The position numbers and the translations under genes are program-made. Of a DNA stretch of 64,000 nucleotides, positions 3,628 to 62,865 are shown one piece after another. The notes under the pieces were generated by a model that made no database searches, was not told the origin of the DNA, and was given only the letters and a program-made list of their open reading frames with translations. How positions within the stretch are numbered: position 1 is the first letter of the stretch; the number at the start of each line of letters is the position of its first letter. This stretch comes from Branchiostoma floridae (Eukaryota; Chordata; Leptocardii; Amphioxiformes; Branchiostomatidae), in NCBI RefSeq assembly GCF_000003815.2, contig NC_049981.1:25167875-25231874 (forward strand). The letters are read 5' to 3'.

Positions 3628-4300
3628 ATAACACACCAGCTTCGCAGGCACGCGGCGCGGCAGCAGCTGGTTATATTACACCGAACGACTCGTTACCCCT
3701 AACTTTTGCACATCTATCTGCAAGAGTTCTTTTAATAAAACTACCCAGAGAAGATGCCCCTACTGTACTTGGTGATAACAAATTCCACTCTACGATAGTT
3801 CTGGGAAAGTACGAATTTTTGAACACATCAATCCTAGGTTGGTAACTCTGGTATTTGAAGGCATGACTGTTTCTTGTTCTTGTTTGAGCTGGTATTGGAT
3901 ACTTATCAGTTGGTACGTCCACCAGTTTATTGGTCATTTTGTACATCATGGAAAGTCTGCAGCTGGACATTTTCCTTCTGTCTTCAAGTGACATCCACTG
4001 CAAATCTGTTTTCATTTTGGTAATACTAGAATACCTGTTATAGTTGTTTGTGCAGAATCGGGCAGCTTGGTTCTGTACCCTTTCAAGTTTATCTTTGTCT
4101 TTCTTTGTATACGGTCCCTTACTGTAGCGGCATATTCAAGGTTAGGTCTTACTAGTGACGTGTATGCAAGTGATTTTACCCTGGTTGGGCATGCCCACAA
4201 GTTGCGTTTGATTACTCCCAATGTCTGTTTAGCCTTGGTTGTTATTTTGTTAACATGGACACCCCACTTCAGCCCTTTATTTGTGGTAAGCATATGTCAT
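3617..4300 (-). mobile_element. 3' end of a CR1/L2-like non-LTR retrotransposon, frameshifted
   Basis: Two overlapping minus-strand frames (4012-4293 and 3671-4015) read as the C-terminal part of a reverse transcriptase ORF: HVNKITTKAKQTLGVIKRNL, SLAYTSLVRPNLEYAATV, then the post-RT tail VDVFK-type segment FPRTIVEWNLL. A frameshift at about 4012 and loss of the usual VWDP motif show decay. The next 55 bp (3617-3672) match a 3' UTR segment seen again at 39220-39275. Confidence 0.85.
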
Positions 4301-27285: not shown

Positions 27286-28388
27286 ATGTTTGTGCCAAGA
27301 CCAATGGCGGTGCTACCAGTGGGTATCATGCTGCTGTTCCTGGGGCAGGCCTCTGTGGATGCGGAGGTGTTCACAGCCCTGTGTGATATGGAGTACCTGG
27401 TACACATGGAGAAGGACCTGGTGGAATCCCTAGACCAGTACATACAGCAGGAAGAGGACAAGTTGAACAAAATTAAGACGTGAGTTTTTAAAGAATTTTT
27501 CATGGCCCACAGTCCGGCCACTATTTTTAAAGGCCCCTATTATTTCATGGGAAGGATTTGGAAAATTAAATAATCTTGTCATTCTTGTCAGTCTTTTACT
27601 AAATTGTAAATTGAATCCACCTCATCATACTACCTAGTGACATTGTGATGTTGTCGTGCTATATACATGTAAATGAGTTCTATGTCCAGGACCTTAAGAA
27701 TTTGTTTACAACTTGGCCCTGGTTTGGTTCAAATTTGCTGGTCATCTTTTGGCCATAGATGAACACTAGAGTTGGACATGTGATAACAAAAATATGCTAT
27801 TTATTAATGCTACAAACATAAAAAAAGTTTTTATTCTGGAGAATATTTCCACGTTTTTTTGGCAAAATGTGTACAAATACTGTAAATGCCTTTAAGTTCG
27901 TCAAGATGTTATTTCTTGGTAGCTGGAAAAACGACTTTTCGCGGTGGTTTTAAGTTCGCGGAAGCACCATGCACTGCAGTCTCTTACTGCCATGGAAAAA
28001 TGTTCGCGGTGGTTTTAAGTTTGCGCTGAAGTGGCCACTGCGAAAACCGCGAAAATTAAACCACTGCAAGTTTCTGCACAAAAATGCACATACATTTTAC
28101 AATGCTCATGGTCAATAAATACTTTAATTCTTTAGGATACATGATGCAAGGTAATCCATGTTTAAGATGCATTTGCCACAAAGACTTTGAATTTGTCCTT
28201 TTTTTGACAGCTTTCAGTCGAGGATCAAGGAAGTGTCCCAGATGGCGATGGAGGAGCCCAGCACACACCTGCACCACCCAGTCAATGCCTACCTCCTGGT
28301 GAAGAGGTACACTCGAGACTGGCCCCTCCTGGAGGCTTTGGTACAGGAGGATACTGCAGAAGGTAGGTCACACACACGCGCACACACT

Positions 28389-28421
<33 letters not shown>

Positions 28422-28580
28422 TTGAGACTGGCCCCTCCTGGAGGCTTTGGTACAGGAGGATACTGCAGAAGGTAGGTCACAGAGACGTTAGCATGCTAAG
28501 CACTAAAAAGCAGAGCACTGTGGGGAACTGAAGTAGGAAAACATATACCTTGACAATATAGGCTATACCGACATGCATGT

Positions 28581-28611
<31 letters not shown>

Positions 28612-31600
28612 TAGGGTGATATTTTGTACAAATTATAGATTTTGGAGCAAGAAAAGAAATTTTGAACAAATGAGAAAGAAAGGGAGACAGATACAGAGAG
28701 AGAAAGAAAGAATATATGCATGAGTAATCACACAACATGGGAATATATCTTTTTTTTTAGAAAACTACTGTAAAAGTTAAATTTTTGAAGGATAAAACTA
28801 AAAGATTTGAATAGTACAATTTTTCTCACAAATACTTCTTATTTCTTTGTCAGATTTTCTGTACAACTTGACCAAAGTGAAGGAGTCGTTCCCATCAGAC
28901 GAGGACTACATGGGTGCAGGAAAGGCCCTGGTGAGACTCCAGGACACGTATGACCTCTCCACTCAGAACATCGCCAAGGGCATGATGGGTCGGGAAATAG
29001 GTATGGCAAGAGTATTACACCTTGTACACACCTCAGGTGCTACTTTCACCTGAATTGTTTCCATCCCTTGTTTTGGTTTTCTGTATTTCCTTTGGTATTT
29101 GCTAACTTCTATTTATTTCTTTATGATTTGTAGATCATGTGTATCAAATCTAATCAAGAGAAGTTAGGAATTAGGAATGAGTAGAACTTGGGATAGTGGT
29201 AGTCAGATATGTTGCTTACACTGACAACACAGAATTGCAGAATAATGGCTTGCTTGATAAGTCTGTAAGCTCAAAGAGTCAAAATGACATTTTCAGTCAG
29301 ATTATGTTAGTGTTCTCTCTTTCACTCATGATTTTTAAAGAATTGGCAGATAAACGAGATCCATATAACTGGGCAGGGTGGGCCCTGTTCATGGTGAAGG
29401 TAGATGTTCAGGTGAAAAATATGTTTCATAATGAATTTGGCCAGTTAACTGACTATATGACTCTTATTATAGTTTCCATGTGGATCTACCACAGTAAAGT
29501 TATACAGGTTTTGATTATCTGATGCAGGTATTTAGAGAAAACTATTTGTGCAATCCTTCAAGTTACAAAAACAGGTGACCTGTAATTTCTGTTGAAGTGT
29601 GCTTTGTGCATTTAGCTGTCTTTGCAGTGGTGTCTTCCTTTATGTTGTTCCTGATGCAATACAGTACTGGCTGTTAATGTTGTACTTGTAGAAAAAATGC
29701 CTCTTTGTGTATACCCCAAACCTTGGTCTTACCTGTAGCTGCTGCTAATCGACCAGAACTAGGCTATACCAAGAGTCCAGAGCTGTCATCAGAGGACTGT
29801 TTTGAGCTGGGCCGGCTGGCGTATATCGACCAGGACTACTACCACTGTGCCCTGTGGATGGAGGAGTCGATGGCCAGATTCCAGCCCGACCCGACCTCCG
29901 ATCTCACCAAAGATACCATTCTGGATTATCTGGCATATGCCAGTTACCAGGTATGGCTCGGGGAGTACGGAACTGTGAGTCGCTTTTACTGCTCTGCACG
30001 TAAACACACTAACGCTTGCTTGCTTGCTTTAACAAATAACTGGTAAGATTTCTGGTAAATGGAAGGGAACATGCTACTGATTAGGCTAACGTTACATTTC
30101 CACAAAGGGGCCAGGCTGGGTAGTTTTGGAGAACGACAAGTACGATATAAATGACAACAAAAACACGAAATAATAAGATAGTTCAAAAGCATGCCTTGTG
30201 CATATTTAGTAGCACAAATTTTAATTTTTCGTTTCCACAAACAGCCCGGCTGGGCCCCAGGTAGGAAATGTGACGTAGGCCTTAGGTGGTTTGTTGAGAG
30301 ACAGCAAAATATCTATGGGCTGGGTTGTGTGCTTGTTATGTGAGGCATTCAGCAACTTGAAATAGATTAAAAGTTGGTCATAATTTAACAGTTACAGTAA
30401 GTACTAACAAACAGTATGTTTTTGTTTCTTATCATTTGATACTTTCAACCGGACGTATGTTATGCTGTATGTTATGTTGTTTTCCGCCATGTTTGTGTTC
30501 AGTAAGTGTTTATAACTGAACTACATCTTCATCTTTTTATGTTTAATCAAAATCATGTAAAATGGCATTTTTATTTTCAGCAAAACAATATCGAGCGTGC
30601 ATACCAGGCTACCAAGGAGCTCCTTAGAATCAGTAAGTTAAGTTTTCATTTAACATCTGAGAATAAAATTCTGCTGGGTTCCTTAAGCTAAAAAGAACAA
30701 AGAAAACACTTATCAAAGTCTTCTCAAGAATGTCTTGAAAACCTGGGTGTCTAAAGTGTCATACCTCGGGGGTCACCAACACCATCCAGAGTGCCTGGAT
30801 GGTGTTGGCGTTCACAGCCTAGATTTGAAGGGAATCATTAATTGGAACAATCCAAGAAACTCCTTGCCAAAACACATGAATGTTAGACATCCAGGTAATA
30901 GTGCATGCCAAATAGCAGTTACTAAAGCAACTGGATATGATTTTGGAAACGGTCAGATGTTTTGGATAAGATCGGATCCGTTATCTTTCATCAGTGACGT
31001 TCAATAGTTAGCATTAGGGGTGGGTACCGTTTTTTCTTATTGGACCGGTCCAGAAAAACCGGACCTGAAAAAATTGAATGGACCAATTTATAAATTTACA
31101 TATTATATGATCAGGCATTCACACGTTTTGGGGCTTACTGGTCTAAGAAAATACCAAGAGCGAAGTAGAGTACAGTTTAAAATCATTTCTACCAAGTTTT
31201 ACAGTCCATTTTACAGACTCTGAGGCAGTTAGCCTTGTAGGATTTTAAAACAGCAGTGGGAGTCGTATAAATGTCTTTCTAGCTAAATGGACCATTGTTT
31301 TGAGTATCGTCCATTCACAAGTTTTCACATACCCATTCAGGTCCAGGTTCAGGTCCGCACCTGGACCTGATCCTCTGGACCTGAACCGGACCTGGACCTG
31401 AATATTCTGTATTAAGGATATAAAAAACTCTCCAACTAGATCTCTTCAGTGTCACTGACAAAAGATAATGGATGTTATCTGAAATGGCTGACGTTTCCAA
31501 ATTAATATCCAGCTGCTTGTGTAATTGCTATTTGGCATTCCTTGCCAAAACCTTTTGCAAGTCAATGTATGATTAAGCATTGCTGGCTCTGTTGATTAAT

Positions 31601-34600
31601 TGGCCTCATAGGTTTACCATTAAGCAAGTGCTAGGAACCACAAGTGTACATTGTAAACCCTCTAAAATGTGCTGACGTTTTTGTTTGTTTTTTAAATCAG
31701 ATCCTGAGCACACTCGTGCGATCAACAACATGAAGTTCTTTGAGAAAGAGATGGAGAAGTCCCAGAACCTGGTGGCACCCCCGAAGGATGAAGATGTTGC
31801 ATCCATAGAGCGAGGAGAATACAAACGTGACTTGGCCAGAGACTACCTCCCAGAGAGAGAGATCTACGAGCTTCTGTGTCAGGCAGAGCAACCAGACATG
31901 TTCAACATTGTAAGTGATTAAACTATTGTCTTGCATTCTTTTTGATACTGTACTTTTTTCTGCCAATTGATTTACCTGCAATTTACCCAAACGACTTCTT
32001 GCAATGTCCAACCCTTGCAAGACAGGGAACAATAGATGCTAAACGGGATAGTTAGTGAGTGAGTGTTGCTTTTGATTTATTGCGATTGATGTAGGTAAGA
32101 TCGTAAGCTTCAATCCTACGTTGAGCTACCACGACTTTTTATTCAACTGTTGTGCCTAATTTTCTCCATATGTACAATGTGCTGCAAACATTCACAATTT
32201 ACACTACTACTGACAAACATTTACAGTACTGCCTACTTTTTTATGCATTTGTCTTACAATGTTGACAATTGTGACATCTCACAATATCTTTCAACAACTT
32301 TCAATGTCCCATACCTACTCAGTCCCCCAAAAGGTCTTACTATTGAGACTTTTTCATCGAATAATGCAACAAGAATGAGAGTGGAAAAGATTTGATGCAC
32401 TGGAAATTCTCTTCATCAATGAAGTATCTTCTTTAAGTTTAAGGAATTAATCCTTGCTATCTTCAGAAACAGTTTTAACAGCTAATGTTGTATTCTTTTC
32501 CTACCTTCTCCTCTTAGACCCCTTCGAGGGCAAAGCACCTGAAGTGCCGGTACTTCACCAACAACAACCACCCACGTCTGCTGCTGGCACCCCAGAAGCT
32601 GGAGCAGGTCTTCGACAAGCCCAAGATGTGGATCTTCCACAACATCCTGACTGATCCGGAGATGAAGGTCATCAAAGATCTGGCTCAGCCACGGGTACGT
32701 CTCCGTCTCTGTTTGTGTCTACTTTTTTTTTAATTCAAAGTCCTTTTTCTCCTTTCTTTTTACATTGAAAGAAAAATCCATGTTGGATAGGTGTTGGTCA
32801 TCATGATATTTGGATACCCACATTCACTGTGTTGAAGTGTCACTAACTATCACTGATGTTTGCTTTGTTTTGTAATATGTCTTGAATTGAACTGAACTGA
32901 ACTGATCATGTGTTTTTCTAATTAATTTCCTGTTATCTGTGGGATCAAATGACATGATGTACAATTAATGTCACTTATTAATTTAATCTTTGAGAGATAA
33001 AATGAGGAGTAAAATTGTTCTATTAAAAGTGTATTTATAAAAAGACATCATGTTGTTATTGTTTTGAACTAAAAACGCTTGACTTGGATATTTGTTTTAT
33101 GTATAAATCGGGGTCATATTGTTGTGGAACACTGTTGTTAAAATTGTTCACTTACAGCATGTTTTTGTAAACTTACTAGAAGAAAGCACAGTACAATGTG
33201 GGAACATAAAAAAAATTCAAAATAGCAGAAAAGTGATACAAAATATTACAGCTTCAGGTATCAAATATGAGGGAACCATAATCACTTCTCTATTTATTAT
33301 TGTCATTCATTGCATGTTTGAGAAAAGGAAACAGGGATGCTTTTTTTCACAAGTTAGTTCATGAAATTAGAAATGCTAAAAATTATAATTACAATTGCTA
33401 ACTTCATTCCATGCTCAAAGTAGGCTGACTAAATCTTGCTCCTAGCGGCCTGCCTGACTAACAAGCCTTCTGGGGGAAATGCTCAATTAGCCCCTGACTG
33501 TGAGAGATTTTATAACAGGCTAGTGTGCAAAGCATTTACTGGAACTGCAAAAGGCTGCCACACATACTTGTATGGTAAGCCACCCCTGTCTTGGTGTTTG
33601 ATATGTTATGACATTATTGGGGGTAAACAAGGTCCAGAAATAAGTTGTTTGTTTTTTTGTTTGTCTTGGCTGCAGCTGTAACTGACAGGTGTACAAGTGA
33701 ATGTTGGGCTGCGTACTGGTATGATACCACAAAAATTGTTTAGGCAGACACAATAGATGTCAATATACCTAAAAGAAGTTAAACTGAAGTACATGTATAC
33801 ACAAATTTTGTTACCAAGGACGTGTAATTCCTACCACAACAAAAACATTACGTGGTCATCAAAATCAACATCATATTTTATTTGAGATCCTCTATGAGTG
33901 AACATTCTTTTCAAGTTCAAACAAATATCAAGACTGCTTAATGACATTTTATAAAGACAGCCTGCCAGGTTACTTTGTTGCATCGTTCAGGTGCAGGTAC
34001 AGGTACAGACTTGTAAGTAAGCCACAGTCCTTGACACTACGTTTCAGTATGCAGCCCTAACTGATGTTATAACATGGCTGCATACCACCGCTGTTCATGT
34101 CAAAGTTGATGTTCTGCACATTGCCTCATCATACTCACCTCTGTCTCCCCTCCAGTTACGACGAGCTACAATCCAAAATTCCATTACAGGGGAGTTAGAA
34201 CACGCATCCTACCGCATTAGCAAGAGGTGAGTGATTGTGATAGGGATCTGAACGTACAGCTTTCCAGCATTTCATCACTAACTAACGATTCTTCCCGTAT
34301 CCTTCCCTAGCTTAGACGTTCGACTGCGCGAAATTTAATCACGGGACAGTATGAACCTGCTTTCTACAGAATAAGTAAGAGGTGAGTGCCTCACACATCC
34401 AGAAAAACTGGTTTGTTTGGTGGCAAGTCTTGGGCTCGCATTGTTCACAGTGGGGTTTTTGAATCATATTTTGATTAGATTTTGGTCAACTTTCAGTTCA
34501 AACTGGTTAGATTTTGTGAACACGATGTACCCTCATCGAATTTGAAATGGTTTATTCTCAACTGACTTAAACCAAATCAAGAGATAAATCCAATTTAAAA

Positions 34601-37600
34601 CTGATTTAAACGTTCACATTCACAAATGTACCCTGTTTATGTCAGGTTTGTTCAAAAGTAATTCCAGTTTATCAAACCCCATTGTGAATAGGGCTTTTAT
34701 GCTCCCAAGATTTGTGTAAGTGGCCCTGGGTTTTAACAGTTTCCTGCAATAAGGAAAAAGGAGAATAACACTCTTGTTTCGTCTGCTGGTACATGAATAA
34801 ACCACCCTCCCCTGCCCAAACTCATATTTTTCACATATACAACAAGTACAGTCAACACACATATCTGATATGAAGAATGCCATTTTGTTATAACTACATT
34901 TTGTACTTTATTTTCTGGCTAGCTATCAGGTGAAATGGCTATCATTACGCAAGAAATTCATATTGGCTCTTAACCAATGATACAATTTTTTTTCTTTCAC
35001 TCTTGTAACATTGCCCTTTATGCTCACCAATACTCTCCCTTCTCAGAGATCAAACTATATATTCAGACTGACCATTATTGCTAACTTGCCTGTGCAGTTT
35101 CTTTCCAGCAGACATATATGTCAGGGTAGCGATTGCAATCTGGAAGGATTGTCGATTCTTCTAGTAGATGTCCCATGGCTAGTCGGAGTCTTTGTCAACA
35201 GAGATCACCATCATCAGGATGCTAGGAATGTGTTACAGTGGTGTCACAGATTTATAAATCCTGAATTCCAAGTCAGTCCATCAATCTTAAGTGACATGAA
35301 TTGTACTTTATTATAGTGGAGGAGATCCCTATCTGTTGATGGAAAGTATGATCACGATCTCTAGCAGCAGAATAGGCAATTCTGCCAGATTGCAATATAC
35401 ATCTACCCTGACAGATATACAAAGACACACACAAGGAGAGCAGATTGTAGTAGTGGCAACTATTACACCATCATCAGTTGATGATCTCACGTATACTATG
35501 GCTTATTTTGCTTTGAAGCTAACCTTTATGGTATGTTGTTGTTGTAGCATTATATTTATAACTAAAATTAAACTAATCTGTGCATCCTGCATGAGTTTGC
35601 TGCTTGGCTAATTTTAGTCCTTCTTGATATTGTAGAATTGTCTGTCTTTGATATTTATTTGTTAGATCCAAGGTGTACTTCAACTACATGGTAGAAACAT
35701 TTGATGTTACTATAAGTGTAGACTTCTGTTTAAAGTCTTAAGATTCCTATGGCCTCTGTTGTTTTTACAACCTTCTTGGAGAAAGCTCTAATACAGACAC
35801 ATGATTTGTTTTCAAGCTTCCAACATTTCTTTTATTTCCCATTTATACTCTTGATAAACACCCCCATGAGGGTTGAAATGTTGATATGCAGCATTGTGTA
35901 CTTTATTCTTGGCATGCCACTTGCAGCATTTTGTTTTGAAAATAAATGTTTGAGGCCCCCGCCCAAGCATAGACTGGTATCCTATTCTAGCTCTTGTATG
36001 CTCTTCCCTGTCAAATAATCTGGCAGTCGTCGATAGATAATTGATTGGAATTTGACTGATCACATAAAATATGAGCTCTGATAACTTATTCAGCTTTAGT
36101 AAAAGATTTACTTTGTATCTTTATTTATTGTACAGTGCATGGCTCCAGGGCTGGGAACACAAGGTGATTCGCCGAGTGAACCAGAGAGTAGAGGATGTGA
36201 CAGGTCTTACCATGGAGACAGCAGAAGAGTTACAGGTAAACACCAACTACCTTCCTCAGAACTTTGTACATGTAGAGTGTTTTCACATGATGCCTTGTTG
36301 GTGTACCTATTTGCATTTCTGTAAATCATGGGTCAAGAGTTTTCAAAGATGAAAGATCTGACCCTCGGATATACAGTAACCAATGTTGAGAAACAGTTGA
36401 TTGTCTACAACTCATAAAAAGAATACTTGATTACTCGCTGATAAAATACATAAATTCTGTGTACGGTTGAATTATACGCTTCAGTTACAAACCATGCATT
36501 GACGCCAGCTTGATGGTCAGCACCTGCCTCCTTCATTATCATATTATTACTATTAGTAAATTAAAATGCTCTATGGAGAAGGAGTGGGCTTTTACAAGAT
36601 CTTGCCAGTAGTGTTAGGCCATATTAATTTGATCTCTTGCAATTGGTTCTTGGACTCACTTCAGCAAAAAGTATAATGCTGTTTCTATGCTACATGATTA
36701 CATTAAATTTTGTATGTACCAGGACTGTCTCCAGGACCCGTCCCTTTGTCCTAGGACGGAAATTTGATGGTTGAGACGAAAAAAATATTACCCCATCCGT
36801 CCTGAAAACCTGAATGTCATAAAACTGTTGAAAATCTATTTTCATAAACTTAAAATGACACGTTTAACCAGAAAAATCAACAAAAACAGCTGGAAAAAAT
36901 GAGTGGAATTGAAACAAAATTTAAAGCTGGAGGCAGTCCTATTATGTACCCTGTTGGATCAGTACAGATCTAGAGACATGTAAAATGTATGTACATTAAA
37001 ACTACATGATTTACCCTCACACAGGTTGTCAACTATGGCATGGGTGGACACTATGAACCGCACTTTGATTTTGCAAGAGTAAGTAGCATGATCTTTTTGT
37101 CAGTCCATTGAAGTCCGTACACGAAGAGGAAAAGTTATGCCAACATCAGAGCCTGCCACTTTGTAGAATGTTGTAGCATTGCAGTTGTGATAGTTGTAGG
37201 TATGTGTGAAACTGCATCTGTATTTAAAGATTTTTCGTAGAAAAAAATGCCTGCCAGAAGCTGTTACGATGCAATGATAAAGTGACGTAATGATTCGAAG
37301 GGACTGAAACATACCACATTATTTTGCTGTCAACCTATCCTACAGATACCTACAGTAATTCAATCCTTTATTTGGTATAATTTTGCATGCGACAATTTGA
37401 CATGTTCCTCACTACCCTGTGGCTGATTAAAAAGCTCATTTCAATCCCCATGTCTTTTCTTTTGCACCCCCTCCCTCCAACATCACGTAGAAAGAGGAGA
37501 AGAGTGCATTTGACCCCAAGGAAGGCAACAGAATTGCTACAATGCTGTTTTATGTGAGTCTTTCTTGAGTGACGTGACGTGGTAAAAGGGGTGCAAGAAG

Positions 37601-40600
37601 CAAGACATTGTCAGCCAGCAAGGAACCTGTAAAATGCATCTTTGAATCTTTTCAATTCCTCAGCACTTACTTGATACATTTCATATCTTTAAGATGGCAT
37701 GGCATCTGGTATATCGACTTTGGTAGAGGGTTACTAAGAAATTTTTTTTGATATCCACATCGCTCCTGTGCTGGTGGCTGCGTCTGACTTCTTTGCATCC
37801 GAGTCACGTTAGTGTTTACATGAACCCATTGAAATGAATGAACCAGCTGGACAATCTAGCCCAGTATCCATCCTATTCTCCAGCCTTGGTTTGTTCCTCT
37901 GAATGCTTCTCCACAGTCTTGAATCTGTCCCATTGAAATGTTTAGTCCTTATTCAGAAATCAAATATTTTCAGAAGCAGAGTAACATACTTTTGAACACT
38001 GTTCTAAGTACTGTGTAACTTGGAGCCAATCAGACCTCTCCAATATTCAATTGCCAATCTTTTCTCAGTTAACGGACGCCAGACAGTTTGGCAAGGAAAG
38101 GTTTTGGAGAAATGAACCAGAGCTAGATTGAGATGGATACCAGACTAGGACTTTGTCTAGCAGAACATGTATTCATTTTGCTGGGTTTGTGTAAGACTAG
38201 CAGTGATGTTATTTAAGATGTAACATTTTGCATGTGGTTTTCTTCCCCTCCTTTAGAAAGAAGAGGTTAATGCGTTCAAAAGCCTAGGGACAGGAAACAG
38301 AATTGCTACCATGCTGTTCTATGTGAGTTCTCTTGCCCCGTTTTTGAAGCGGCAACACGGTAACCCATTTTTGCGAGCTCAGCTGCGACGCCCATATCAT
38401 CAGCAGGCCAAATAAATCAAATCAATCAAATAGTGTTACAATTTTCAACAAAAACTGCTCTGACAATGTTTTTCATTTACAAACATGACACACAATTTCA
38501 GGCCTACTTATAGGTTTTTCCTCAATCTGTCTGTCTGTGTCAACTGTACTAATTTTTATGTTGTATTATCATAATTTCCCAATCTTTGTAACAGAAAAGA
38601 AGAAATACCAACTTATTGAAAACTTGCCACAAAAGATTGCATGATTAACATAAAGGGCATACCATTTCATGCATTGCAGTAGATAAGTAACTCTAGTATT
38701 TCACCTAATAGTTGTTTGTGTTGTTGTTTTTTTTATGTTGTGTCAGTCAAATATGTGACTAACAGACATTTGTCTACCACTTGTAGAAAAGTGTGTTTGG
38801 TTGAGCCTTCTTTAAATCATGCTTCAAGCAACCCTCTGAACAGTAGATTCTTTAGGCACTCGACTGCAGATACCTGTAAACTGGGGGAATCAACGTTACT
38901 AAGTATACTGAGTTAGAAGCACCCAGTTGGCCAGTTGTGCTGCGCAACCATATTTTGTTAGACCCAACATAGTTTCAATCTCAGTTAGTCCAGAGTGCTG
39001 CCTTGCTTTTGAGAGGACACTGTTAAAAAAAGAAGGAATAGTCATGCCTTCGAGTATCAGAGTTAACAAGCTAGGATCAAAAATTTGTATTTTCCCAGAA
39101 CTATCGTAGGGTGGAATTGTTATCACCAAGCATCTTCGATGGAGAGTTTTAAAGAAAACTTGCATATAGATGTGCAAATGTTAGTTGTAACAGGTCGTTC
39201 AGTGTAATATGTACTAGTAACCAGCTGCTGCCGTGCCGCGTTCCTGCAAAGCTGGTGTGTTATGCCAAAGGGCTGTTATACCAGCTATATTGATACTGAT
39301 ACAGAAGCTGGTGTGTTATGCCAAAGGGCGGTTATACCAGCTATATTGATACTGATACAGAAGCTGGTGTGTTATGCCAAAGGGCGATTATACCAGCTAT
39401 ATTGATACTGATACAGAAGCTGGTGTGTTCTGTTATGCCAAAGGGCTGTTATACTGGCTATATAGATACAGATTCAGATACAGAGGGTCTTGCAATTGGA
39501 CTACCACTGAGTGCACCAAGGATCATGATCAGTGTTTAAACAACAGGTCAAGGCTTGACATATAAAATTGAATATTGAGCTATCATACTGATTCAAATTG
39601 ACAATCCTCCGGGATTTTGTGAAATTTATTGACATTTACTGGTTTACAGCGCAGTCTGATGTCGCTTTTCAGCAGAATTTGTGTTTTGGTCAATTTTTCT
39701 TTTGGTTATTTCTTGTTTGTGGAATTTTGACAAATATAGGAGAACAAAATTTACACATAACCAACTCTAGTTTTTAGAGTTATTTGTTGCAGAATGCAAT
39801 GTATGAAAAAATTGCCCCAAATCTAAAAGAAATAGGCTCAGCTGCTCTGTAATCAGGATGTACTCCACCAGACAACGGCGCACTGAGTCCTACCGGAGTG
39901 AACTCCTACAATGACGAGGTGACGTTCACCTGAGCATGCCAAAGGCAGTCTATTTTTTCTTGCTACTGGAGACTTTGCCTCTGGACTTTTTTTATCCATG
40001 TGTGCATTTTTCTACTACCGGTATGAACAATCTTTTATCTCGTACTAAAAGTTTCACAGTGGAACACCAGTTTGTGTCTTTGTTTGCAGACTAGTCTTAC
40101 CAATTACACCCTATGAATACAATTATTATAGAACAATCCAAGGAAATCATTCCTGAATGTTCCGGACTTGTATCCATCTATACTGTCACATCTACTAACA
40201 TAGTTCTGCCAGGTCACATACATCCACCCTCAAAAATGTGTCTCTAAGATCTTTAATGCAACGTTTCCCTGGGGGCTTCTGTCCTCGAGATCTCTCAAAC
40301 ACACTGTTTTCAACGCATGGTAATAAAAGTATTCATACTCAACTGAGGATGCTTTTTGATGTAGCTAGTGGTACTACCAGTAAAATGCAACTTGGCTATG
40401 GCTAATTTTTTTTGGCCAAGCAAACCAGGACACCTTCACTCTTCTTAATACATGTAAGTGTGTTCCTAGTTTTACATGCAGATTTTTTTAATATTTGAGT
40501 CTGGTGCCAAAAGCTCCCTCACACACAGGGCTACTGACTTTACGTCCCCATGAAAAGGATGCAACTTTTTTGTCAGTTGTGTTGTGACCTGGACCTGAAC

Positions 40601-41709
40601 TCCGGCTTGCTGATTCCGTGAAACTTGAATTGCGTGGTGGATGGCAGAGTGCCCAGGCCTTCACATCATGCACGCACACCTGTTTTTCCAGAGTGGTGGA
40701 TATATGTAACCCGGCAGATAAATGTTAAAATGGAGTTTATGTTTTAGGATTCTGACTGATGCCTACCCGTTTTTACTTGTAAAAAGAATGTCTACAATAT
40801 TTTGTCCCTCCATCCTTACAGATGAGTGATGTGGAAGCTGGTGGGGCCACTGTTTTCCCACAAGTTGGTGCTAGACTAGTGCCAGAAAAGGTAGGGAATA
40901 ATCAAAATAATGAAATAATGTTATAGGGTTTGTAAATCAACGATCATTTGAAGATGGTGACTGGTGGTTTAGGAGTGTTGTGTGATCAAAATATACTCAT
41001 AATTCAATGCTTTTTTTAATGTCTTCACAAGACTTAGTGTGTATTTTGTAACTAACTAACTTGAAGTTTGTCACACTAGGTTCTAAAGCTTATATGTCAA
41101 AGTATCTGTGGCACACACACATGTGGAATTCCATTGCTTAGGGAGACGCCTGGATGAAAACTGTAACACATGGTTGATCTCTATTTCAGGGAGCTGGCGC
41201 GTTCTGGTACAACTTGTTTAAGAATGGGGAGGGCGACATGCTGACCAGACATGCTGCCTGTCCTGTCCTGGTAGGAAGTAAATGGGGTAGGTGGACATGC
41301 AATATTGCCAACTTTCAGTTACATGTTATTGTGTTTTCAAGTAACAATTTCAGTTATGTTGTGTTTTTAAGTGGCAATTTCAGTTAGCCATAGGCAGGAT
41401 TGTGAAATTTTTGCCAATTTTATGATGATGAAACAGATTTCAAGCTTGGTTTAAAATGGACAGAAAGCCATGAAACAATCAGACCAAAAATCAATTGCAA
41501 ATCCTTCCAACCCATAAAGTTAAAACCAACATGGCAGAATTTTACTGCTTGAAAAGAAATTTCTGATAAGAAGCTCAAACCATCAAAAAGTCAGCCAAAT
41601 TTTAATCACACTGTCTTGATTTTTCCACTGTATTACAGTGTCCAATAAGTGGATCCATGAACGAGGTCAAGAATTCCGCAGGAAATGTGGACTGTCTCCA
41701 GAGGACTAG
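27286..41709 (+). CDS. P4HA: Collagen prolyl 4-hydroxylase subunit alpha, complete, with two alternative exon pairs
   Basis: ER-lumen 2-oxoglutarate/Fe(II) dioxygenase subunit that hydroxylates proline in procollagen as a tetramer with PDI. Exons: 27286-27479, 28211-28362, 28854-29000, 29739-29950, 30581-30632, 31701-31909, 32518-32694, 34156-34226 or 34311-34381, 36136-36235, 37025-37078, 37491-37553 or 38257-38322, 40822-40890, 41190-41286, 41639-41709. All are GT-AG and in phase: 556 residues with the 66-nt exon, 555 with the 63-nt one (human about 534). Residues 1-26 are a signal peptide (IMLLFLGQASVDA). An N-terminal helical dimerisation region is followed by a TPR-like peptide-binding domain (about 165-260, including AYQATKELLRINPEHTRA) and the catalytic domain. 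The iron ligands H451 and D453 (EPHFD) and H522 (TRHAACPV), and 2-oxoglutarate lysine K532 (GSKW), keep human spacing exactly. There is no KDEL tail, as expected. An acceptor at 27260 implies an upstream 5' UTR exon; a second in-frame ATG follows at 27304. Confidence 0.96.
27878..28075. mobile_element. MITE of the same family in P4HA intron 1
   Basis: The left end TACTGTAAATGCCTTTAAG matches the element at 47278. The interior has three GCGGTGGTTTTAAGTT copies and an inverted AACCGCGAAAATTAAACC near the right end. The right terminus is eroded. Confidence 0.65.
28311..28481 (+). repeat. Partial duplication of P4HA exon 2 end with its splice donor, around a CA microsatellite
   Basis: About 60 bp covering the last 50 nt of exon 2 plus the GTAGGTCACA donor (28311-28371) recurs almost unchanged at 28422-28481. 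The copies are separated by a CA/CG dinucleotide tract (28371-28420). The second donor is at 28472. Using it would add 109 nt (not a multiple of 3) and shift the frame. Confidence 0.85.
34156..34381 (+). other. P4HA: P4HA mutually exclusive exon pair, 71 nt each
   Basis: Exon a (34156-34226) encodes LRRATIQNSITGELEH and on to YRISK. Exon b (34311-34381) encodes LRRSTARNLITGQYEP and on to YRISK. Each has its own acceptor and a GTGAGT donor, is exactly 71 nt, and fits the same phase (0 in, 2 out). Including both, or neither, breaks the frame, so only one can be used per transcript. The intron between them is only 84 nt. Human P4HA1 is known for a mutually exclusive pair at this same position (exons 9 and 10). 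Confidence 0.92.
36721..36942. mobile_element. hAT-like MITE with 8-bp target duplication in P4HA intron
   Basis: Inverted ends AGGACTGTCTCCAG and AGGACTGCCTCCAG. TATGTACC occurs at 36713-36720 and again at 36943-36950, two bases past the apparent right end. Confidence 0.8.
37491..38322 (+). other. P4HA: P4HA alternative exon pair, 63 and 66 nt, in the catalytic domain
   Basis: The first exon (37491-37553) encodes KEEKSAFDPKEGNRIATMLF plus Y; the second (38257-38322) encodes KEEVNAFKSLGTGNRIATML plus FY. Both begin and end in phase 0, have GT-AG sites, and share the second half (GNRIATMLFY). They differ in the loop that follows the HxD iron motif. The second resembles the P4HA1-type loop (LGTGNR), while the first has the shorter EGNR loop of the alternative human P4HA2 form. 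Both are frame-neutral, so exclusivity is not forced by phase; tandem inclusion would insert about 21 extra residues between iron ligands and is unlikely to be active. Confidence 0.88.
37840..38155. repeat. Inverted pair of a dispersed short repeat in P4HA intron
   Basis: Contains ATCCATCCTATTCTCCAGCC on one side and GAACCAGAGCTAGATTGAGA on the other. Related single copies occur near 8000-8160, 9990-10100, 10375-10440, 16085-16170 and 35960-36020. Confidence 0.5.
39207..39490 (+). repeat. LINE-tail segment with 56-bp minisatellite in P4HA intron
   Basis: Units beginning GCTGGTGTGTTATGCCAAAG start at 39251, 39307, 39363 and 39419 (56-bp spacing); the fourth is interrupted and ends in GATACAG-type repeats. 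The sequence before it (39220-39250, CAGCTGCTGCCG and on) is the reverse complement of 3617-3672, which directly follows the reverse-transcriptase stop. Confidence 0.85.
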
Positions 41710-49470: not shown

Positions 49471-52400
49471 CTACATGGGCGAGGCGGCAGGCTCGTAGCT
49501 ATTGGTCACAGGGGACTCTGCGGAGTTGCAGATTGCCTCGCTAAGGCCATGCTGGTCGCGTGTGTTGGTCAGAGTACGCTCTTTGTCAGTGACCAGGGTA
49601 TGGGAGTTGTAGCGGGGTGCCTTGCGGGAACACTTAGCGGCCTCTCTAGGGTCATTCTGGTCATATGTGCTCGACAGGGTGCGCTTTTGGTCAGTGGCCA
49701 GGGCAGGGGAGTTGTAGCAAGGTGCCTTGGGGGAACGCTTAGCGGCCTCTCTAGGGTCATTCTGGTCATATGTGCTCGACAGGGTGCGCTTTTGGTCAGT
49801 GGCCAGGGCAGGGGAGTTGTAGCAAGGCGCCTTGGGGGAACGCTTAGCGGTCTCCCTTGGGTCACGCTGGTCATATGGACTGGACAGGGTGCGCTTTTGG
49901 TCAGTGGCCAGGGCAGGTGAGTTGTAGCAAGGTGCCTTGGGGGAACGCTTAGCGGCCTCTCTAGGGTCACGCTGGTCACATGATGTGCCGGACAGGGTGC
50001 GCTCTTGGTCAGTGGCCAGGGCAGGGGAGTTGTAGCAAAGTGCCTTGCGGGAACTCTGAGCGGTCCTGGCATTCTGCTGGTAGGCAGAAGACCGGGTAGC
50101 GCCTGGATTGGGCAGAATGACTGGGTGCTGGTAGCAGCTTCGGCCGGACTTGCCACCGTTGCGGTTATCGCTACCTTTATGGCCATAGGCAGCCACGACG
50201 GCCCCTTCCCTGTTTGGTGTGTGACGGGGGCGCTCGGTGCTGTACGGGCGGGACGGCACGGGGTGTGTCTGCGCGCGGGCGCGGCCTGCGTACGCTGCGC
50301 ACAACTTCCCCTCCCCGTACGGGGTGACTTCAGATTGGGAAGAATCTGCCCTGCGCAAATCAGGGTGGTCCGCGAAACCGCCCTCAGCGTAAGGGCTGAT
50401 TACTGATTCTGACTCATTCAAGCTGTCGTGATCCTCGAAACCACCCTCAGCGTACGGACTGATCACTGATTCATCCATGTTGCCAACAAGCCACCTGGAG
50501 CAGGCAGTGATCTGATCGCCATTGCGGTTTTGACCTGCAGCATTCTCAGGGACTTTACGCCTGAGCCTACACCTGACATAGCGGACGCATCCCAAAACCC
50601 CGGTGGTAGCAACTCGCGACAACAGGCCAATTGCTGCACACAAGGCATACCATGTCATATCTCCATAGCCATCATCACTCGCGCAGGCGGACGGTGGTGT
50701 GGTGCATGTAGGCAGTGGTGTGGTGCTGGTGCTGGCTGAGAATGGTGTCGTGTTCGTGAGTGAGAGCTCTGTGGCTTGGGGTGTTGTTATGCCAGAGTGT
50801 GCGCGCTCACTCGCCATGAAAACGACAGTGTGGGAACCAGTTTCCGAAGAGGCAGTGCAAGTGATGTTCCCAAAGGACAAGGGCTCGGTGCTCTCTAGCC
50901 AAAGGGTGAATTTGGTCTTTCCCATGTAGTTAGAACACAGGCTGTGATTTGCCTCGGAATCCCCAAACGGGTTCTCTTCTGGCAACATACATTTCACCCA
51001 GCCCTCAGCCTTTAGGTCGGTCACTATTCTTACGTTTAGGCTGCCTGTCGGCAGACGGGCGTGTGTGGTTGTGTTTGTGTCGTGCGTTATGTCGAGCGCG
51101 TGGTGTGAGCCGTTGGGGAAGGCACACGACAATTGGGGCAATTGCTCCCAATACACGACGCCTTCTGTTTCGTACTTGTGCGCTGCAGTGCGTTCCACGT
51201 TCACGATCTCGACCAGCGGACCCGGGCAGGGCAGTGCTTTGGGACCGACTGGAGCGGGAGCATTTTGCACCCGCGACGTGGCAGGGCAGCCTGCTTTCGG
51301 GAACACACGTATTGCCGTGGTAAAACGCTGCTTCACGCTTGGGCTGTTGCCTTCGTGGTCGTACAACCAGCCATTCGCACAAGTGCAGCGCGGCAGATTA
51401 TCCATTGTAACACTGGCCCATTTTTCCAGGGACCTCTCTTCTAGCTTAATGGCTGCAATCGTATTTCCACGCACGAAAAGGTCGTTTGGAAATGACGATT
51501 TGAACCAACCACCGGACAGGAACACCAGCTGGTTTCCTGCCAGGTTTAGGGTGGACAATTCCGTGTTGGAGTGGAACGCGCCAGCAGCAATGTGAGAAAT
51601 TCTGTTACCTTCCAGGGCCAGGACTTCCAGCCGCTCAAGACCGTGGAACATCCCCACGCCGAGCGCTGTCAGTTTGTTCTCAACAGCGTGGACATATACT
51701 ACGGACTTGATCGCCTGCAAGGTCCCGGGTGGTACGTTAGAGATAAGATTGGCACTTACGTCAAACCACCGCGGCTGCACTCCCAGGAACGTGCCAGGAG
51801 ACAGGGTCAGGATTTGGTTGTCCACAAGGATGAGGTTGAGCAAGCTGGGCAACCCACCAAAGCAGCCATCCTGCAGCAGAAAGTATCTTCATTTATTTCT
51901 TTGTTTCGCCGGAAGGACCGTGTCACCCATGTCATATGGAACTTTAAGCAAGTAAAATTTTTTATGCAAAAAAAGACAATGTGTCTCCACAATCCCCCAA
52001 TTTTTTCATTATTATTATTGAAAGATACATGTAAAAATACAAATAAATGGACAAGGACAAAGTGATGGCGTACTCAAATTACATTCAACTTATTTTAGCG
52101 CCGCCACTTATACAAGAATTGAAAATAATAAATTACATAGGACGATAACAAATAAATTGTATATATATAGTGAACGTGAGTCTATCCCCCTACCAATAGA
52201 AAAATCAAACAAAGAATGATACTTGAAATTCTAAACGGTTTGTTGATGTTATGTAGACATGTGTTGCCGCTATAATTTTGCAGTTGACATTAAAAGAACA
52301 GAAAGCACTATCATGTAAGATCAACATTTCTTTGGCATTGTTTGCAAGACTGTTGAAATCAAGTATATGTACAAATAACCCAGAAAGCTTGCCGAAGAGG

Positions 52401-53499
52401 ACTGAGCGCTGGTAAGTATAGTTAGGGCAGTGCAAGGTAATGTGAAATCATTTCGTATGGACACCCGCAGCTGCAGGTTGGACTTGACACAAGACCCAGA
52501 GTAAAAAGACTATGATTCAAGCTGCAGGTGCCCATACGAAGTGAAATGAGAATACAGGAAAGTCGAGAACCGAAGCTAAAAAGTTGAATTTGAGAGGGCG
52601 TACCGTTTTAAAAAGATGTGTTCGAGATTTTGAGAAATCAAGCGTACGAAAATTTAAGTCCAAGTTGTTCCAAGCAGTGATGGAATATGTAAAAAGACGT
52701 ACGTATACTAAAGCGGTCAGTGGAAAATTTGATAGGTCTCAAATTTCTACTGTTTCTCAAATCATAAGTTTAATTTATGGTATATAGAGTGAAATACAAT
52801 GAAGAAGGAATCCCTGATCTTAAAAGCCACTCATATGATCACTGGTCCAAAACGATAACAAAAGAAGACTATTTTGTTAGAACCGTATGTTTTGAATCTT
52901 ACCTCCAGATGTGTCAGGTTGTTCTCCAACAGCAGAAGACGGTTGAGACCTTCCATCCCAGCAAACGTGCCGTTCCTCAGAGTCTGGACATTGCTCCGCC
53001 AGATGACCAGGGTGGAGACCTGTGGCAACTTAGCAAACGCCCCTCCCTCTATCGCCGTTAGGTTACAACCCACAAACCACAGCTTGCACACTCCACCACA
53101 CGGGATCTGAGAGATGATCTCTGCCTTTTCAATGCCAAGCTTACCGACGTTATTGTCAACGATCATGATGCTGGTTATCCATTGTGGGTTCTGAATGGGC
53201 CCCCCCAGGGTGGGCCTTGGATCATTTGAGCAGACCTGACAGGATTGGAACGCCTTGCTCAAAGAAACGGTTTGAAACGGGCCCGTATAGCTGGACGCTT
53301 CGTGCGGGTACTTGGTCCACTTGTACCGGTACGCTCCAATGTCATACCGGTACTCATGACCACCACTACCGCTATCGCCTACGCCACACTTCTCCACGGA
53401 CACCTGCCGGCAGCTCTGCCAGCTACCGGCGTCCACACTATGCACTAGCAGCTGCGAGAGCAGCAACAAGCAGACATTTGCCGCCAGCTTTATCGCCAT
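49471..53499 (-). CDS. LRR and Ig-like single-pass receptor with long repetitive cytoplasmic tail, 2 exons
   Basis: Exons 52903-53499 and 49471-51870 join in phase 0 (GAG|GTAAGA donor, CTGCAG acceptor) to give 998 residues. Order: signal peptide 1-24 (VCLLLLSQLLVHSVDA); a cysteine-containing N-terminal region to about 110; leucine-rich repeats to about 360 (LxxLxLxxN, e.g. LEVLALEGNRISHI); LRRCT from about 360 (RCTCANGWLYDH); one Ig-like domain about 448-540 (LSCAFPNGSH to ITCTASSETG); a Thr/Ser/Pro stalk; and a weak membrane segment about 606-629 that contains one arginine, followed by basic residues. The tail of about 365 residues has three related tyrosine motifs (SVISPYAEGGF twice, EVTPYGEGKL) and about five 35-residue repeats containing CYNSPALATDQKRTL. 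This is the LRRIG layout expanded in amphioxus, probably used in adhesion or immune recognition; ligand and function are unknown. The intron holds LINE debris. Confidence 0.9.
49530..50070 (-). repeat. Coding tandem repeat, 105-nt unit, in receptor tail
   Basis: Five copies with matching positions at 49606, 49711, 49816, 49921 and 50029: spacing 105, 105, 105 and 108 nt, always a multiple of three. Inner copies are nearly identical and outer ones more diverged (GTSCDQRDP at one end, TNTRDQHGL at the other). Each unit carries one tyrosine in CYNSPALATDQ or a close variant and a second in most TYDQ segments. Confidence 0.93.
51900..52840 (-). mobile_element. LINE debris in receptor-gene intron
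   Basis: Minus-strand residues CSCGCPYEMISHYLALP and, in the next frame, NYTYQRSVLFGKLSGLFVHI form a C-terminal RT zinc finger with one frameshift (52205-52500). A short segment is repeated in inverted orientation: CCATACGAA at 52453-52470 (reverse) and about 52530-52545 (forward). The remainder has no features. Confidence 0.6.
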
Positions 53500-54899
53500 G
53501 ATAGAGATTTAGTTGATAGCAATGAAATCTATATTACCACATCCGAAACGACTACAAGCAAATGGCTCTACAAAAGTAAAGTCTTACCGTTTTATAGTCT
53601 GCCCCCAAGCCGCTGCTTACGCAGAACCTGGACAGCCTGGGAGAACCGTGCTTCCTGCGGTGGCGCAACAGCGCTCTAACCGCACCGGACCTTGCAACAG
53701 TCCCTAACAGATTAAGTCTACGTTATTTCGAGGACACTTCATTCATATATAATTTCCTCGGTCGTGTCGTGCCTGCGTCGGAGCAGAAGCATTCTTAAGC
53801 GCCAGGTATTCACGTATGGCATGCTTTACCAGATTGGCTTTTATTAGTCTGCCCAATGGAGAAAAACAACACATTTCAAGGAAAGAATATACAGTTCATC
53901 TTCCAATGTTCTCTTTTAGAGGGCTAATTCGTGGTAAACCTGGTTTATTTGAACACATAATCGATAATCACCAGTTTCCATTAGACAATCTTTGTGTTAA
54001 ACATATCGCGTTTTCAGCTGTCTGGCTAGCTAGGCTACTGAATATATGCATTAGAAATCGGCCAAGCCTGTTTTGTTGTTTGTCGTTTGTCGAGTTTGGG
54101 CTTCTTCTCTGGCAAACACATGCACAAACACACGCGCGCGCGCACGCACACACACAGGCAGACATGCACACGCGCGCTCGCACACACACACACACACATA
54201 GAGAGAGAGAGAGAGAGAGAGAGAGTATCTAATGGCCATCTAAAGCCATGGAAGTTATCGCCATGTCCTCAAATCAAGGAAGTTGATATGTAGGAAGCAC
54301 AGTGTAGACCAGTAGTGTGTGTAGTCCAGTTGTTATTAGCGGCTATCGAAAAGGGTTGCAGTCCGTAGGACGAGACTTAAGCCGTGGTCCACTGTTCATT
54401 TTACGTGTCAAAAAGAGCAAGGGAAATGTACCCGGTACAATGGACCTTTGAATACTGTACACAGCGTCTGTCTTCTCTGTTACGACCAGTTGAAGAATAG
54501 CTCTTCAAGAGAAACAGCTGCGTTCCCTATGTATATCGATTTGAAGACATGATGCCAAGTTTGGCCTCAGATTAACCTGAGATACTCTGCCCCCTTATGA
54601 GTTAGCTTAAGTTACACCCAGACCTCACTGAACCACACTTGAATTATTACACAATACGTGTACATGGCGTTCAAAGTATGGCGGGTTTGGGCAACAAGTA
54701 CTTAGCAGCAGTCCTAATGAACTAATCTATTCTAAACAATTAAAACTTGTTATGATACTCATATCCTACGTACTAATATATTGATATCTAAATAAACGTT
54801 TCTTCACTTTGGAGTGTATTTTGTATGCATTGACTTTTCTTTTTAAATCCAAGATGGCGGCGAGTAGGTAGGACGCGTTGTACTGTGTGTGGCCAAAAA
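53500..54899. other. Upstream of the receptor gene, no gene seen
   Basis: Holds the receptor promoter region (minus strand) and the compound microsatellite at 54115-54228. No exon or conserved motif recognised elsewhere. Confidence 0.5.
54115..54228 (+). repeat. Compound CA/CG/GA microsatellite
   Basis: Alternating CACA, CGCG and then AGAG runs. The open frames across it are simple-sequence artefacts. Other simple tracts are GT at 17465-17545, TA at 7382-7401 and GA at 28578-28605. Confidence 0.95.
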
Positions 54900-62634: not shown

Positions 62635-62865
62635 TAGTAATCTCCAAGCAGATCTTGCTGTGGCAAATGGGAAGGAGTNNNNNNNNNNNNNNNNNNNNNN
62701 NNNNNNNNNNNNNNNNNNNNNNNNNNNNNNNNNNNNNNNNNNNNNNNNNNNNNNNNNNNNNNNNNNNNNNNNNNNNNNAGCAAGGCCATAACTCCTCTGC
62801 CGGCTAAACTCTTTCCCATTTGCCACAGCAAGATCTGCTTGGAGATTAGCGTTTTAGGCCTAACC
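62635..62865. other. Assembly gap of 100 N flanked by inverted repeat
   Basis: N run 62679-62778. The left flank (TAATCTCCAAGCAGATCTTG and on to the gap) is the reverse complement of 62806-62850, with one or two mismatches. The missing DNA therefore lies inside a fold-back element. Confidence 0.95.

Follow-up and report, generated by a model that had tools for sequence, protein, structure and literature searches.

Can a single collagen prolyl 4-hydroxylase alpha-subunit (P4HA) gene hold both of the alternative exon pairs that are reported from two separate human genes, P4HA1 and P4HA2? The question is raised by a 64,000-nucleotide (nt) stretch of the genome of the amphioxus Branchiostoma floridae (NC_049981.1 of assembly GCF_000003815.2, positions 25,167,875–25,231,874, forward strand), here called the window, to which all coordinates below refer. 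It contains a complete P4HA gene on the plus strand, running from a start codon at 27286 to a stop codon at 41709, in which two of the 14 coding exon positions are doubled in tandem, giving 16 exons. Our reading, which we hold at a probability of about 80%, is that this one P4HA gene carries two alternatively used exon pairs, each swapping one active-site loop that closes over the peptide substrate.

Two exon pairs at the substrate-binding loops

The first pair, supported by the gene model, a cassette scan and loop mapping, consists of e8A (34156–34226) and e8B (34311–34381), two plus-strand exons of 71 nt that encode alternative versions of a hairpin loop, LRRATIQNSITGELEHASYRISK(S) and LRRSTARNLITGQYEPAFYRISK(S), respectively. 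Each starts in phase 0 and contributes, at its end, the first two bases of a codon that exon e9 completes, and 16 of their 24 residues are identical, counting the shared junction residue. When all 805 AG–71-nt–GT/GC cassettes across the two strands of the window were scored by BLOSUM62, e8A and e8B reached 74 against each other, with the next best cassettes at 5 and 9. Nei–Gojobori counting gave 14.2 changes at 16.5 synonymous sites, which are nearly saturated, versus 12.8 changes at 52.5 non-synonymous sites (Fisher P = 9e-6 on rounded counts). Judged by these counts, the contrast shows that pair 1 has been under purifying selection and has long been conserved at the protein level. The corresponding exons of human P4HA1 are presumably also 71 nt long.

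The second pair, placed by the gene model and loop mapping, consists of e11A (37491–37553, 63 nt) and e11B (38257–38322, 66 nt), also on the plus strand, which encode two versions of the betaII–betaIII loop, KEEKSAFDPKEGNRIATMLFY and KEEVNAFKSLGTGNRIATMLFY. Both exons are in phase 0 at both ends, and 15 of 21 aligned residues are identical, including all of the last ten. The pair is visible as a direct repeat (37523–37559 versus 38292–38328, 92% identity over 37 nt); the cassette scan, which matches equal lengths only, could not join exons of 63 and 66 nt. Here, 6.3 changes were counted at 12.3 synonymous sites (pS 0.51), which are not saturated, versus 11.7 at 50.7 non-synonymous sites.

All four alternative exons have an AG acceptor and a gtgag donor, and their phases fit those of their neighbours. 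A first-pass annotation of this DNA had described pairs of 71/71 and 63/66 nt with full splice sites, the second lying just after the HxD iron motif; its coordinates proved exact, and the motif, HFD, is indeed encoded by the constitutive exon e10, directly before the e11 pair. For none of the four exons did the cassette scan of the window reveal a further copy of equal length. Introns flanking each pair, in which residual similarity would be a sign of recent duplication, showed none above shuffled sequences (277, 115, 145 and 285 of 300 shuffles were as good).

To place the differences on a known fold, the form combining e8A and e11B was aligned by HMMER to Chlamydomonas prolyl 4-hydroxylase (Cr-P4H), with the HxD histidine numbered 143, which we take to be its position in that enzyme. 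With this numbering, the ends of three published Cr-P4H loops land on residues named in PMC9676403. According to the same source, the peptide is sequestered by two substrate loops, the hairpin loop Ser77–Thr94 and the betaII–betaIII loop His148–Gly159. All eight positions at which e8A and e8B differ map to residues 77–91 of Cr-P4H, within the hairpin loop. The seven differing columns of e11A and e11B correspond to residues 151–158 and to one column without a Cr-P4H residue that adjoins Gly159, thus lying in or beside the betaII–betaIII loop. Each pair is therefore predicted to swap one jaw of the peptide clamp: because the differences are confined to the two loops and HFD is constitutive, the gene can exchange either jaw with the metal site unchanged.

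These are the same two loops that vary in the human enzymes, splice variants of C-P4H-I altering the hairpin loop and those of C-P4H-II the betaII–betaIII loop (PMC9676403), so that the earlier statement that human P4HA1 varies at the first site and P4HA2 at the second is borne out by the published account together with our mapping. The mutually exclusive exons of human P4HA1 (named 9/10, 9a/9b or 10a/10b) are likewise homologous alternative exons at the hairpin loop (PMC9676403, PMC11868403), as are e8A and e8B; the reported P4HA1 variants, as far as these sources describe them, concern this loop only, whereas the amphioxus gene adds a pair at the betaII–betaIII loop. Exons 12a and 12b of human P4HA2 likewise alter the sequence and length of the betaII–betaIII loop just past HxD (PMC9676403), as do the two homologous exons of unequal length found here, and the P4HA2 variants described there concern that loop alone.

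The identity of the gene is consistent throughout its length. For the e8A + e11B form, Pfam matches above the cut-offs were obtained to P4Ha_N (6.7e-38), to the peptide-substrate-binding TPR_P4H (1.4e-30) and, in the catalytic domain, to 2OG-FeII_Oxy_3 (PF13640, 5.6e-14). Among solved chains, the closest (7zsc_A, E = 4.1e-99) represents the catalytic domain of human P4HA2, followed by the N-terminal domains of human P4HA1 (4bta_A, 2.8e-62), and the HFD motif aligns with the HxD of both 7zsc_A and Cr-P4H. In the animal, the gene is thus predicted to be that of the alpha subunit of collagen prolyl 4-hydroxylase, with a coding sequence of about 1.7 kb and a product of 555 or 556 residues depending on the splice form. 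In this family, the alpha subunit builds an alpha2beta2 tetramer with protein disulfide isomerase and hydroxylates collagen.

The remaining exons, all on the plus strand, are constitutive in the gene model. Exons e1–e7 (27286–27479, 28211–28362, 28854–29000, 29739–29950, 30581–30632, 31701–31909 and 32518–32694), joined by GT–AG introns in an open frame, encode the start codon, the N-terminal dimerisation domain, the peptide-substrate-binding domain, the linker and the beginning of the catalytic domain. Exon e9 (36136–36235) and the HFD-bearing e10 (37025–37078; alignment to 7zsc_A and Cr-P4H) lie between the two pairs. Exons e12–e14 (40822–40890, 41190–41286 and 41639–41709; gene model and Pfam) complete the 2-oxoglutarate (2OG)–Fe(II) oxygenase core up to the stop codon and presumably hold the second iron histidine and the 2OG-binding lysine.

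Several repeats lie within the gene. The 3' part of e2 with its donor (28309–28372) recurs in the following intron (28418–28481) with 63 of 64 bases identical and a CA repeat in between; were this distal donor used to make another splice form, 109 nt would be gained and the reading frame lost, and the copy was treated as an intronic duplication. An inverted-repeat element with arms of 16 and 37 nt, possibly a small transposon, lies in the intron between e8B and e9 (35114–35418), and a minisatellite of four copies spaced 56–61 nt apart, of which the first three are alike at 96% or more, lies between e11B and e12 (39249–39493).

Proposed splice choice at the two pairs

All four combinations of e8A or e8B with e11A or e11B translate without an internal stop, and the gene could thus, as the first-pass annotation had proposed, make four potential catalytic forms. 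Through two independent choices, the one gene would yield four enzymes that differ in their substrate tunnels, if both members of each pair are used and if the choice within each pair is mutually exclusive; the two loops may then tune sequence preference along collagen.

The consequences of a wrong choice are not the same at the two sites. Inclusion of both e8 exons leads to a stop after 9 codons and skipping of both to a stop after 43, whereas inclusion of both e11 exons, or of neither, keeps the reading frame. Pair 1 is frame-protected and pair 2 is not, and frame logic supports exclusivity for pair 1 only. At the first site, nonsense-mediated decay would enforce the presence of exactly one of the two e8 exons in stable messenger RNA. 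The intron between e8A and e8B (34227–34310, plus strand) measures 84 nt, less than any other of the 15 gaps between adjacent exons, and has, at 55 and 59 nt from its donor, branch-point-like CTAAC adenines; this arrangement may add steric hindrance. Since the frame survives either error at pair 2, exclusion there must be regulated, through an active switch.

The best candidate for this switch is a hairpin around e11A. An inverted repeat with 21-nt arms (37450–37470 and 37588–37608, 81% complementary; 37450–37608 in all, plus strand) encloses e11A together with both its splice sites, and the fold of 37440–37615 is computed at −53.4 kcal/mol (z = −2.60), a value matched by 1 of 200 shuffled sequences. 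Among the 16 exons, e11A scored strongest (−37.8) in a flank-to-flank duplex test. We regard this hairpin as a lead rather than a finding.

Choice between homologous exons is documented for the human and mouse counterparts of pair 1. Human P4HA1 exons 9a and 9b are reported to be mutually exclusive and to differ in their effects on collagen deposition and invasion, the 9a form raising both more than 9b in breast cancer cells (PMC11868403). In mouse cells, the choice within the P4ha1 pair depends on U2AF1 isoforms, PTBP1 and SRSF7 (PMC6821156), and the human P4HA1 pair is among those responding to U2AF35 knockdown (PMC5224494).

A number of observations weigh against the reading of two alternatively used pairs. 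Exon use is predicted here from genomic DNA, and the contrast between synonymous and non-synonymous change at pair 2, although in the same direction as at pair 1, is not significant (P = 0.08). Around e11B, the computed fold is unremarkable (z = −0.86; 40 of 200 shuffled sequences did as well). Within the introns of the gene, 21 of 2864 positions equal the duplex strength of e11A, as do 15 of 2122 when sampled a second time, and 76 of 3682 positions do so in the window at large. The duplex at e8A, the second strongest, is equalled at 74 of 2077 positions and is barely above that of the constitutive e4 (equalled at 107 of 1951 positions).

The first two of these points would also fit an alternative: one member of a pair could be a non-functional or seldom used relic, with the gene making only one or two of the forms; the hairpin, too, could silence e11A permanently. 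We consider such a relic unlikely, since all four exons retain open frames, phases and splice sites, the amino acids of pair 1 have been kept in the face of near-saturating synonymous change, and the differences within both pairs are confined to the loops. Two alternatively used pairs are our preferred reading of the gene.

Relationship to the vertebrate exon pairs

Whether the amphioxus pairs descend from the same duplications as those of P4HA1 and P4HA2 is a separate question. The gene itself appears to be an outgroup of the two human genes: in its catalytic part, the e8A + e11B form is identical to human P4HA2 at 147 of 249 residues and to P4HA1, whose letters are provisional, at 160 of 249, versus 181 of 250 between the two human proteins, a pattern expected if the amphioxus lineage left before P4HA1 and P4HA2 separated. 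The first-pass annotation had gone further, proposing that both duplications, if homologous to the vertebrate ones, predate the vertebrate genome duplications and were then lost reciprocally, and had named a tree of the alternative exons as a check.

We compared all 15 topologies for five exons per site under the LG model with approximately unbiased (AU) tests, using 24 alignment columns at site 1 and 22 at site 2. The site-1 set comprised e8A, e8B, two P4HA1 exons in provisional letters and the single P4HA2 exon (7zsc); the site-2 set comprised e11A, e11B, the P4HA1 exon and P4HA2 12a in provisional letters, and P4HA2 12b (7zsc). The two provisional P4HA1 exons carry labels, x9 and x10, that serve as names only and imply no order in the gene. 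The open-licence literature that we searched did not yield the alternative-exon sequences of human P4HA1 or P4HA2.

At site 1, the AU test rejects 12 of the 15 trees, and the remaining three are equal in likelihood to within 0.0001; two of them allow a duplication shared with vertebrates and one is independent. In these data, the single P4HA2 exon groups with one P4HA1 exon, with the other P4HA1 exon, e8A and e8B on the far side, which suggests, given the provisional P4HA1 letters, that the vertebrate site-1 pair is older than the split between P4HA1 and P4HA2. At site 2, AU values below 0.05 are obtained for only 3 of the 15 trees. In the highest-ranked tree, e11A is paired with e11B, as expected for independent origin (AU 0.753), and the tree that joins e11A with 12a, as expected for shared origin, is 0.76 log units worse (AU 0.578).

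The two halves of the site-2 exons tell different stories. In the loop half, the motif FKxLGTGNR is common to e11B, P4HA1 (provisional letters) and P4HA2 12b (7zsc), and EGNR after a shorter loop is common to e11A and P4HA2 12a (provisional letters); the second halves are identical within the amphioxus pair and alike within the P4HA2 pair. The loop halves thus favour a shared origin, and gene conversion could reconcile them with the second halves. Overall, exons of 24 and 22 columns cannot, on the trees computed here, separate shared from independent origin, and pair 2 appears to lean slightly towards the latter; so we put forward the reciprocal loss only as a hypothesis. What stands of the original proposal is the coincidence of the exon sites and of the loops, together with the four potential forms.

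Under a single origin, each duplication would have occurred once, in the one P4HA gene that preceded the genome duplications of vertebrates, with P4HA1 later losing one pair-2 exon and P4HA2 one pair-1 exon. We find this plausible while holding it at somewhat less than even odds. It would account for the same exons covering the same loops in both lineages, for the P4HA2 site-1 exon joining one of two P4HA1 exons, for the matching loop signatures and for the near-saturation of synonymous sites in pair 1. A precedent exists in the Fgfr IIIb/IIIc exons, where a single non-vertebrate chordate gene likewise has a mutually exclusive pair that is common to amphioxus and vertebrates and kept in several vertebrate paralogs (PMC5703972); there, however, shared origin was shown by wide sampling and the pair was retained in Fgfr1–3, whereas the P4HA events would be split between paralogs. 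Against a single origin stand the tie at site 1, the preference for the independent tree at site 2, the identical last ten residues of e11A and e11B and the pS of only 0.51 at pair 2. Furthermore, of 42 tandem exon events that coincide between human and fly, 35 looked convergent (PMC9741552).

The rival view, nearly an even bet in our estimate, is convergence: at least one of the pairs would have originated separately within this lineage, the substrate-clamping loops being profitable places at which to vary the enzyme. The best site-2 tree and one of the three tied site-1 trees agree with this, as do the frequency of convergence among tandem exon events (PMC9741552) and the finding that one and the same P4HA1 exon (provisional letters) is the nearer to both e8A and e8B, at 18/24 and 15/24, the other reaching 13/24 and 11/24. 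Convergence would have to explain, on the other hand, why each amphioxus site-2 exon bears one human-type loop signature (12a and P4HA1 letters provisional), and random duplication among 14 positions would hit the same two only about once in 91 times, a figure that ignores selection.

If the duplications were nevertheless shared, the pre-vertebrate P4HA gene would have been a two-switch gene for four hydroxylases, of which P4HA1 later kept the hairpin-loop switch and P4HA2 the betaII–betaIII-loop switch; we offer this scenario tentatively, as somewhat short of an even chance. A comparable history is known from CACNA1F and CACNA1S, paralogs that likewise resolved ancestral exon pairs, three in number, after gene duplication (PMC9741552), with the difference that they keep different exons of every pair, whereas the P4HA paralogs would keep different whole pairs.

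Exon pairs of P4HA in amphioxus were not mentioned among the matches listed from the open-licence literature, most subscription journals and the genome databases lying outside that search. The terms P4HA, prolyl, amphioxus and lancelet are absent from the main texts of PMC9741552, PMC4465641 and PMC5740500. A search of a genome-contig collection with the catalytic part of the e8A + e11B form gave 10 pattern matches, none of them confirmed, and no match in viral contigs.

Surroundings of the gene and significance

Elsewhere in the window, the minus strand encodes one or more leucine-rich-repeat proteins (LRR_8; 49471–51888 and 52831–53508), the long open frame of which ends in a tandemly repeated tail of about 35 residues (RSPKAPCYNSPALATDQKRTLSS...). 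A minus-strand open frame at 60440–60811 matches the D-ala-D-ala ligase C-terminal family just above the Pfam cut-off (E = 1.8e-6) and ATP-grasp_4 below it, and is probably an exon of an ATP-grasp enzyme. Overlapping minus-strand frames at 3671–4296 resemble, by eye, the end of a reverse transcriptase of a long interspersed nuclear element; the frame at 3671–4135 gave no Pfam match at E 0.01, the other overlapping frame lying outside that scan. The sole undetermined bases of the window are a run of 100 N at 62679–62778.

We know of no study that has varied both loops in one enzyme, and the amphioxus gene would offer a natural two-by-two experiment on what each loop contributes to the substrate preference of collagen prolyl 4-hydroxylase. 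Even if the pairs are convergent, the same two loops would have been chosen twice; if they are shared, a choice made at the level of splicing, with two loops and four forms of one ancestral gene, would have been divided between two paralogs.

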